A DNA stretch of 64,000 nt from Phymorhynchus buccinoides (lineage: Eukaryota; Mollusca; Gastropoda; Neogastropoda; Raphitomidae): contig CM065682.1 of assembly GCA_017654935.2 (NCBI GenBank), forward strand, positions 36,514,438 through 36,578,437, written 5' to 3'. This document shows positions 19,706-22,700 of this stretch, piece after piece. Positions within the stretch are counted from its first letter, which is position 1, and every line of letters starts with the position of its first letter. The translations under genes and the position numbers were made by a program. A model generated the notes under the pieces. The model had not been told where the DNA came from. It worked only from the letters and a program-made list of their open reading frames with translations, and ran no database searches.

Positions 19706-22700
19706 CTAGAAACGTAAAAAAAAGAAGAATCAAGTTTCGAACATCAGGAAAGATGTACTCCTATGAGTAAAAAAAGTGACAGGGAAAAAAGAAAAGAAAC
19801 CAAGTTGCCAACTTCAGAAAAGATGTACTCCTAAAAAAGAAAAAAGAAAAAGAATCAAGTTTCAAATATCAGGAAAGATGTACTCCTTGAAGGGAAAAAA
19901 GAAAAGAAATCAAGTTACCAACATCAAAAAAGATGTACTCCTAAAAGGGAAAAAAGAAAAAGAATCAAGTTTCAAACATCAGGAAAGATGTACTCCTTGA
20001 AGGGAAAAAAGAAAAAAAAAGGAAAATATGGTGTGTTTTTATCTGCAAGTGTGTATGTAGAAAGGCTGCTTGGTGAGGATGTAGTAGGCAAACATGACCA
20101 TGCTGGGGCCATTGGTGACAAAGTAGGTGACCCACCCATCAACCCATTCAGCTCATACACAATCCCCCCTCCTCCCTTCCACCCCCACCACACAGACCTG
20201 CTTGGTGAGGATGTAGTAGGCAAACATGACCTTGCTGGTGCCGTTGGTGACAAGAGTATGCCACCAACCCATCAACTCGTTCAGCTCATACACAATCCCC
20301 CCTCCTCCCTCCACCCCCACCGCACAGACCTGCTTGGTGAGGATGTAGTAGGCAAACATGACCTTGCTGGTGCCGTTGGTGACAGAGTATGCCACCAACC
20401 CATCAACTCGTTCAGCTAATACACAATCCCCCCTCCTCCCTCCACCCCCACCACACAGACCTGCTTGGTGAGGATGTAGTAGGCAAACATGACCTTGCTG
20501 GTGCCGTTGGTGACAGAGTATGCCACCAACCCATCAACTCGTTCAGCTCATACACAATCCCCCCTCCTCCCTCCACCCCCACCACACAGACCTGCTTGGT
20601 GAGGATGTAGTAGGCAAACATGACCTTGCTGGTGACGTTGGTGACAAGAGTATGCCACCAACCCATCAACTCGTTCAGCTCATACACAATCCCCCCTCCT
20701 CCCTCCACCCCCACCACACAGACCTGCTTGGTGAGGATGTAGTAGGCAAACATGACCTTGCTGGTGTCGTTGGTGACAAGAGTATGCCACCTACCCATCA
20801 ACTCGTTCAGCTCATACACAATCCCCCCTCCTCCCTCCACCCCCACCACACAGACCTGCTTGGTGAGGATGTAGTAGGCAAACATGACCTTGCTGGTGCC
20901 GTTGGTGACAGAGTATGCCACCAACCCATCAACTCGTTCAGCTCATACACAATCCCCCCTCCTCCTTCCACCCCCACCGCACAGACCTGCTTGGTGAGGA
21001 TGTAGTAGGCAAACATGGCCATGCTGGTGCCGTAGGTGACGAAGTAGGTGACACACCTATCAACCCGTTCAGCTCATACACAATACACCCCTCCTCCCTT
21101 CTCCCCCCCTTCCCTCCCTCCCCCCACCCCCCCCCCCCCCACCTCCAATGCACAGACCTGCTTGGTGAGGATGTAGTAGGCAAACATGGCCATGCTGGTG
21201 CCGTAGGTGACGAAGTAGGTGACACACCTATCAACCCGTTCAGCTCATACACAATACACCCCTCCTCCCTTCTCCCCCCTTCCCTCCCCCCCCCCCCCCC
21301 CCCCCCCCCCCCCTCCAATGCACAGACCTGCTTGGTGAGGATGTAGTAGGCAAACATGGCCATGCTGGTGCCGTAGGTGACGAAGTAGGTGACACACCTA
21401 TCAACCCGTTCAGCTCATACACAATACACCCCTCCTCCCTTCTCCCCCCCCCCCCCCCCCCCCCCCCCCCTCCAATGCACAGACCTGCTTGGTGAGGATG
21501 CAGTAGGCAAACATGGCCATGCTGGTGCCGTAGGTGACGAAGTAGGTGACACACCTATCAACCCGTTCAGCTCATACACAATACACCCCTCCTCCCTTTT
21601 CCCCCCTTCCCTCCCTCCCTCCCCCCCCCCCCCCCCCCCCCCAATGCACAGACCTGCTTGGTGAGGATGTAGTAGGCAAACATGGCCATGCTGGTGCCGT
21701 AGGTGACGAAGTAGGTGACAGGCTCCATGATGTCCCAGGAGTACTCCCACCAGGTGAGTCGCGCCAGCACCCCAAACTGCAGCCCCATCAGGCCCAGCCC
21801 CAGCCACTCCAGGTGGTGGGTGTTCTTCAAGGCCTTCGCTTCCAGATCCTGCTTCGCCTGAACATACAGAGAGACAAAGACTTAATGGAGCTTGAAAAAT
21901 CATTCCATGTCCTTTAGAGTGGCACAGTGGTAGCGCGTTCGCCTCGTGTAAGTAAACCCAAGTTCAAACCTGGGTACAGGGGATTTTCCCTCTCACTTTG
22001 CACTAGGCCTTACAGTCTGAACGTGGAGTCTTTCAGATGAGATGATAAACCGAGGTCCTGTGTGCCCATGCACTTAGTACACGCTAAACCTAGTGTCATT
22101 TGGTCCCCCCCCCTTCCTCATCAGTCACACAAAAATCACATGCCAAAAAAAATTGGGTGGCGTGCCTCTGGCTGCAACGCGCTCTCCAGGTGGTAGCAAC
22201 CCGAATTTCATAGACGCCTCTGTGACTATAAAGTACCTAATAATAAATAAATAAAATCTGCCAGCACACAAAGCCCAGCCCCAGCCACTGCAGGAGGTGG
22301 GTGTTCTTCTAGGCCCTCACTTCCAGCTCCTGCTTCACCTACACACAAAGAGAAAGATGATGTTCGACCATAGGTCAGAGAGTAGGTCCACTCCAGGTGG
22401 GTGTTCTTCGAGGCCCTCACTTCCAGCTCCTGCTTCACCTACACACAAAGAGAAAGATGATGTTCGACCATAGGTCAGAGAGTAGGTCCACTCCAGGTGG
22501 GTGTTCTTCAAGGCCCTCACTTCCAGCTCCTGCTTCACCTACACACAAAGAGAAAGATGATGTTCGACCATAGGTCAGAGAGTAGGTCCACTCCAGGTGG
22601 GTGTTCTTCGAGGCCCTCACTTCCAGCTCCTGCTTCACCTACACACAGAGAGAAAGATGATGCTCGAGAATAGGTCAGAGAGTAGGTCCACTCCAGGTGG

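Follow-up and report, generated by a model that had tools for sequence, protein, structure and literature searches.

The window, by which the whole 64,000-nt stretch of Phymorhynchus buccinoides DNA analysed here is meant, lies on contig C3 of an assembly of 2.12 Gb in 3962 contigs and was found to carry two divergent neighbouring genes (19499-62055), one for MCU on the minus strand and one for CDP-diacylglycerol synthase (CDS) on the plus strand. The nearest named MCU proteins are those of Babylonia areolata (83%) and Nucella lapillus (84%), the nearest named CDS protein is that of Babylonia (87%), and these relatives are caenogastropods. With the exon numbering of the original prediction, MCU exons 3-5 were placed at 41120-41290, 36633-36737 and 29219-29379, and tblastn together with the splice sites placed exon 6 at 21654..21857 (minus strand, acceptor side 21857, donor side 21654) and exon 7, with the TGA stop at its end, at 19499..19705 (minus strand). 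Ten CDS exons were located from 50410 to 62055; MCU exons 1 and 2 and the first CDS exon were not located in the window. A paralog of MCU occurs on contig C1 near 26.77 Mb and is most like the second MCU of Babylonia. The two MCU and two CDS proteins of Babylonia pair up on contigs that have the same two lengths, an arrangement suggestive of an ancient segmental or whole-genome duplication.

Intron 6 of MCU had been predicted to consist of 11 copies of the exon 6 donor edge, then five copies of the exon 7 acceptor edge, and little else, and this was borne out by direct and tandem repeat tests of the region and by self-BLAST of the whole window. The donor-edge array (20066..21653, minus strand; repeat finding, BLAST) has a unit of about 66 nt of exon followed by the intron start, and BLAST with the real edge together with direct inspection gave 11 extra copies from 20066 to 21550. 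The acceptor-edge array (19706..20019, minus strand; repeat finding, BLAST) is built mostly of 55-bp units, its five copies lying inside 19738-20019 with junctions at 19760, 19830, 19885, 19940 and 19995. By subtraction, the sole stretch of the intron in neither array is 20020..20065 (46 bp, minus strand). In 10 of the 11 donor copies the junction reads AAGCAG/GTCTGTG, the slash marking the exon end, while the most distal one (20066-20131) ends exactly at the exon end and continues without GT (AAGCAG/CC). Coding sequence plus splice site, claimed for every copy, is thus present in 15 of the 16 copies of the intron, and the boundary itself is indeed part of the repeated unit. Identities of 81-97.5% to the real edge by BLAST, and TRF scores of up to 1833, exclude chance similarity.

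The donor array comprises two generations. The four proximal copies, spaced by 157-171 bp, are 98.5-100% identical to the exon over 66 exon bases, and the distal family, spaced by 131-132 bp, includes six 131-bp units with derived changes in common. Directly after the exon 6 donor and in its nearest copies (21113-21650) G is repeated in long runs, of up to 27 when unbroken and longer when interrupted; the distal 131-bp units are without them.

Copies were likewise present at other edges of MCU. Intron 5 holds eight copies of the exon 6 acceptor edge in 100-bp units (22273..23091, minus strand; repeat finding, BLAST), and four copies of the stop-codon edge, each with the coding end, the stop region and 3' UTR, occupy 18939..19409 (minus strand; BLAST, repeats). 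In this gene every acceptor copy precedes its exon and every donor copy follows it. Exon 6 and its acceptor copies are separated by an unstranded dispersed repeat (21915..22242), presumably SINE-like, with another copy at 26605-26976 (self-BLAST). Self-BLAST also disclosed palindromes of 140-241 bp, 81-90% complementary, at 13056-13226, 24257-24492, 36470-36607 and 60098-60260, two of which (13061-13220 and 60099-60258) are 93% alike; we take them to be MITE-like elements.

In CDS, exon G (57481..57633, plus strand; sequence match and splice sites) is preceded by 11 copies of its acceptor edge in 83-bp units (56533..57480, plus strand), seven of them identical to the real edge over 78 bp. An in-frame TAA stands at the unit junction after each copy, 48 nt past every decoy in the coding frame. 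A predicted CDS isoform of Babylonia (P0128) is without exactly 51 residues, which are those of the exon that carries the 11-copy acceptor array here (56533-57633). A 26-bp x 8.8 array (54198..54422, plus strand; TRF) starts at the exon E donor and is made of the intron start and hardly any exon. Two diverged copies of the stop-codon edge were recognised at 62816..62945 and 63146..63280 (plus strand), with alignment scores of 61 and 49 against a maximum of 27 in 500 shuffles, and an 88-bp x 2.2 array lies in the 3' UTR directly past the stop (62073..62292, plus strand; TRF, self-BLAST). A two-copy array at 58396-58774 and another in the C1 flank (12030-12221) contain, or are flanked by, alike stretches of the form GACCTTCCCC..CACCA.CTGTCC; their appearance is that of a transposable element and not of an exon edge.

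When one BLAST rule was applied to the window, 6/29 edges had local copies: exon 6 acceptor (8), exon 6 donor (11), exon 7 acceptor (5), MCU stop (4), CDS exon E donor and CDS exon G acceptor (11). Adding the CDS stop, detected only by the sensitive alignment, which among the edges negative by BLAST was run on CDS, and a thirtieth edge without copies (exon C donor), the count becomes 7/30, two of the seven being stop codons. Under the common BLAST rule one of four stop edges was positive (MCU; the others are CDS, the MCU paralog and USP39). Random window positions had local copies in 439/3000 cases, many inside arrays and dispersed repeats, and therefore the window alone is weak evidence of targeting; the overlap of TRF arrays with window edges gave p values of 0.003-0.29, depending on the rule.

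In the neighbourhood, a 400-bp rule gave 9/50 positive edges in three genes of C3 and 2/6 on C1, which is below the rate of the genome-wide sample described below. In USP39, left of the window, two acceptor arrays comprise 18 and 2 units and two donor arrays 4 and 16. In the MCU paralog the acceptor copies resemble its own exon, and over 86 bp the donor copy matches the paralog's exon with 100% identity, so that at least that copy arose independently of those in the window. Runs of N in the C1 and C3 flanks, which are parts of the assembly that have been masked or withheld, measure 500 bp to about 13 kb, mostly in multiples of 2500.

Pfam searches across the whole assembly then served to find exons of three protein families, which were retrieved together with flanking DNA, the final count being made with 300-bp flanks and one rule. 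From the chaperonin CCT family 20 of 54 matches were taken down the list, omitting the long, intronless-looking C20:23344585 and C9:58714377, two nearly identical matches on C7 that contain a stop (36026380, 35956050), C27:30632907 and whatever stood lower in the list. From the proteasome family 20 of 32 were taken, omitting the second match of each of three near-identical pairs as well as the end of the list. The neuronal class was represented by ligand domains of Cys-loop receptors, of which 20 of 150 matches were used; these were short (120-258 nt) and intron-bounded in appearance, and the whole-domain matches were omitted, as were several matches with stops or near duplicates. Some of the sampled exons are on small unplaced contigs, perhaps alternative haplotypes. 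Exon ends were taken as the ends of the HMM match with a tolerance of 12 nt, and exon L080 matches only just outside its end.

Edge copies were found in 28/60 exons and at 33/120 edges (14 acceptors and 19 donors), or at 28/120 edges under a strict rule by which the match has to run across the match end. They were present in each family, in 10/20 chaperonin, 8/20 proteasome and 10/20 neuronal exons and at 14/40, 8/40 and 11/40 edges, respectively, with an uneven split between 1 acceptor and 7 donors in the proteasome and 9 acceptors and 5 donors in the chaperonin exons. Housekeeping (22/80) and neuronal (11/40) edges were alike (Fisher p 1.0). The controls, all drawn from two fetched neighbourhoods, gave 152/2000 random pseudo-edges and 128/1000 pseudo-exons with 400-bp flanks, 63/800 and 60/400 in an earlier run, and 3/400 pseudo-edges with an exon-like GC step, again with 400-bp flanks. 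The difference of the real edges from the random pseudo-edges (Fisher p 4e-10) and from the GC-step control (p 8e-20) carries optimistic p values, because exons were counted as independent and several come from one gene. The random control is conservative, because positions inside long arrays inflate it, and the GC-step control may be biased low, because positions inside arrays rarely show such a step.

TRF by itself detects fewer: in 80 flanks of 400 bp (40 housekeeping exons) it found 13 with an array touching the edge, 4 with an array nearby only and 63 with none; as background, 296/4000 random points were within 15 bp of an array and 509/4000 random 400-bp windows overlapped one. Arrays near exons that do not include the edge were seen at L034 and L041, and farther out at L044-L046. 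Among the 79 self-matches of the 60 exons with 300-bp flanks, which miss whole-exon copies farther off, 62 crossed an edge, none spanned the exon, 5 looked interior, 6 were in the flank only and 6 fell within tolerance. Chaperonin exons with 600-bp flanks showed no whole-exon copies among the first 12 matches listed per exon. Tandem arrays at exon edges are thus a genome-wide trait of this snail, at about a quarter of the sampled edges, and intron 6, to which the original prediction was too narrowly confined, holds real arrays of a kind shared with other edges of the window (seven in all) and with 33/120 sampled ones. Open frames of hundreds to more than 2000 aa were observed around some chaperonin exons (C27:30851499, that is G000; C3552:19065; C33:1058336) and likewise around the receptor exons C8:49246717 and C9:33140374; they are perhaps arrays without stops in the frame read.

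The anatomy of the units was analysed on 29 edges already known to have copies, leaving out the L034 and L067 donors (unclear junctions), the stop edges, CDS exon E and the MCU paralog; the L047 donor gave no copies there, leaving 28. The median shift to the nearest copy was 115 bp and the exon part copied was 6-101 nt. Shifts were multiples of 3 at 10/28 edges, as by chance, and not at the other 18. Counting only the copies that reach the junction, AG or GT was kept in 137 of 142 aligned across it. Mismatches amounted to 10/539 (1.9%) in the splice motifs and 156/3116 (5.0%) on the exon side of the copies, a ratio of 0.37 with a bootstrap interval of 0.10-0.96 over 23 arrays whose copies are not independent of one another, and the lower divergence of the decoy splice motifs is suggestive only.

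The correlation of copy identity with distance from the exon in the 15 larger arrays was negative in 10 and positive in 5 (mean -0.14). The exon as a repeated source of outward growth was considered on this basis and is clear in only two of the 15, the MCU exon 6 donor and the CDS exon G acceptor. All eight exon 6 acceptor copies open with GTG for valine, the residue that Babylonia and Nucella have at this position and that the exon has since replaced by alanine; four of the eight retain the serine of the relatives. Among the MCU stop copies, three share the reading KEI with Nucella, Littorina and Pomacea, and the fourth has KEM like the exon. Since copies share residues of the relatives, some arrays are most simply taken to be older than the changes in their exon; others, such as that of CDS exon G, are nearly fresh.

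The consequences of using the decoys were followed by translation of 34 in the window, namely the acceptor copies of exon 6 (8), exon 7 (5) and CDS exon G (11) and 10 donor copies of exon 6, and all 34 lead to a premature stop. A decoy exon needs an acceptor followed by a donor. In intron 6 decoy donors precede decoy acceptors, so that no decoy exon is formed, and such a decoy or poison exon was found in neither intron 5 nor intron 6 of MCU, the copies in intron 5 being acceptors. Exon definition pairs splice sites across a short exon, and this is probably how the decoys come to be ignored.

Taken together, we consider it rather likely that the arrays are minisatellites seeded by short duplications across borders of coding and non-coding DNA and tolerated since the outer copy keeps working. 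The anatomy of the units indicates that the edge is first doubled by a short tandem duplication, which breaks at one end within the coding sequence and at the other within the neighbouring intron or 3' UTR. Function would stay with the copy adjoining the rest of the exon, the first for a donor or stop codon and the last for an acceptor, as the translations bear out for the 34 window decoys and as may hold elsewhere. Since the working copy adjoins the exon, the extra copies would fall on the non-coding side and be tolerated. Interior or whole-exon duplications would break the protein and be purged, a step suggested by the near absence of such copies. Slippage or unequal exchange may then expand and homogenise the array, here up to 18 units. 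The original prediction had named slippage anchored at the boundary or repeated unequal exchange, and tandem duplication followed by either process fits. A splice-site anchor would not be needed, because stop-codon edges are copied too; the stop-codon copies point to the border of coding DNA rather than to the splice site, with the reservation that of four stop edges the common BLAST rule picks out MCU's alone. Against the border reading stand the weak signal of the window by itself, the lower rates in the neighbourhood, the scarcity of clear outward growth (two arrays in 15), the arrays near exons that leave out the edge, and the higher CpG o/e of exons with arrays.

The least certain step concerns why borders are hit. 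Coding islands may be where the two haplotypes of a polymorphic animal resemble each other most, strand exchange would start there, and template switching or aborted repair where homology ends would duplicate the border. Recombination starting in conserved coding islands is the favoured hypothesis for the targeting of borders. The full proposal, a lineage-wide process in which strand exchange in meiosis or repair aborts where a conserved, haplotype-identical coding island meets diverged DNA, duplicates the border and so leaves arrays at about a quarter of edges, is put forward tentatively, as less likely than not. Several other causes were tried and set aside. A local GC step carried arrays at only 3/400 positions. 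Exon GC was 0.585 with and 0.569 without arrays (p 0.41; 0.574 against 0.534 in the C3 neighbourhood). Housekeeping expression was set aside since the neuronal class is alike. Exon methylation, expected as low CpG o/e, was opposed by the higher CpG o/e of exons with edge arrays (0.81 against 0.62, p 0.035, 40 housekeeping exons). As another kind of conserved island, tRNA genes were sought with ARAGORN in the joined flanks and the window, and none were found.

The main rival to border duplication sees in the copies splice decoys with a function, which selection has maintained and amplified because additional 5' and 3' splice sites tune splicing, for instance through intron retention or transcript decay. 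The retention of AG or GT in nearly all junction-aligned copies at the 28 edges, the lower divergence of the motif than of the exon side, and the premature stop behind each of the 34 translated decoys, as unproductive splicing requires, are what it would lead one to expect, and the seemingly lower motif divergence, which pure neutrality does not predict, would count against the explanation preferred here. Yet stop-codon edges, which have no splice role, are copied too, gene classes do not differ, and intron 6 has its donors before its acceptors and hence no decoy exon; moreover, the interval of the divergence ratio is only marginally below 1, the copies within an array are not independent, and young arrays keep their sites anyway. 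We regard selected decoys as an unlikely, though serious, explanation.

Somewhat less probable again is that coding DNA as such is prone to duplication, through its chromatin, methylation or transcription, and that only events at edges survive selection. Copies at both kinds of splice edge and at stop codons fit this, as does the near absence of interior and whole-exon copies. Against it, gene class has no effect (though the receptor genes may be expressed in the germline), the GC step alone has no predictive value, exon GC shows no clear difference and the CpG o/e values oppose an origin driven by methylation. A genome rich in arrays, some of which land on exon edges without any targeting, would account for the frequency of arrays elsewhere (296/4000 points, 509/4000 windows) and for the weakness of the window tests (6/29 against 439/3000; p 0.003-0.29), but 33/120 edges stand against 152/2000 and 3/400 in the controls, and of the 17 flanks in which TRF saw an array near the exon, 13 have it in contact with the edge, which makes this reading very improbable. 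Most improbable is an artefact of the single assembly, or a mobile element that captured exon ends, since nothing came to light in its favour, copies diverge (71-100% identity) with shared derived changes, unit length varies between loci and copies match the local exon.

If border duplication is true, conservation of sequence, rather than any motif, sets the places at which minisatellites arise; should the sampled rate also apply to the whole genome, the spliceosome copes with tens of thousands of near-perfect decoy sites. A quarter of edges carrying perfect or near-perfect extra sites within a few hundred bases would amount to a natural mass experiment on splice-site choice, since in very many genes the true site would have its own copies as competitors. 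It would also document, many times over, the places at which short tandem duplications arise and persist. Edge arrays would also mislead gene prediction, exon-level read mapping and studies of intron length in such genomes. The origin of minisatellites, a long-standing question, becomes directly testable by comparison of haplotypes and sister species.

As for known systems, a human minisatellite containing splice donors in one gene was reportedly described by Turri in 1995; the gene is probably IFI6 (6-16), with a very short unit. The view that no standard repeat class does this was therefore partly wrong. The likeness is that of a tandem array whose unit holds the splice donor at an exon end, and the snail arrays indeed consist of tandem units of tens to about 200 bp with a splice site in 137/142 junction-aligned copies. 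They differ in involving donors, acceptors and stop codons in each family sampled, with units mostly of 55-200 bp, where IFI6 is one gene. In the literature searched no report of genome-wide exon-edge arrays was found, and as that search was incomplete no claim of unpublished status is made; the accessible parts of the sources on the IFI6 minisatellite, on AGGT intron gain and on UBC describe no arrays at a large share of exon edges.

Intron gain by tandem duplication of an AGGT segment, in which an exonic segment makes a new intron (PMC3443670), resembles the snail arrays in that a coding gene acquires extra splice-like sequence through a short tandem duplication. In the snail, the duplicated segment includes intron sequence and a boundary that was already there, is situated in the intron and often occurs in many copies; a purely exonic segment, with a new intron between the GT of one copy and the AG of the next, was not encountered, the units containing intron beyond the existing splice site. 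In UBC a tandem array of dual-specific splice sites is made of coding monomers that are spliced in and out (PMC10809524), and shares with the snail repeat units that carry splice sites. The snail units are situated in introns and the window decoys run into stops, and with 18/28 shifts not multiples of 3 an interpretation as in-frame coding modules was rejected. Decoy exons, which promote intron retention (PMC8706089), are likewise non-productive splice sites in introns; the snail arrays are set apart by their polarity, the acceptor copies of MCU lying only upstream and the donor copies only downstream of the exon whose edge they repeat.
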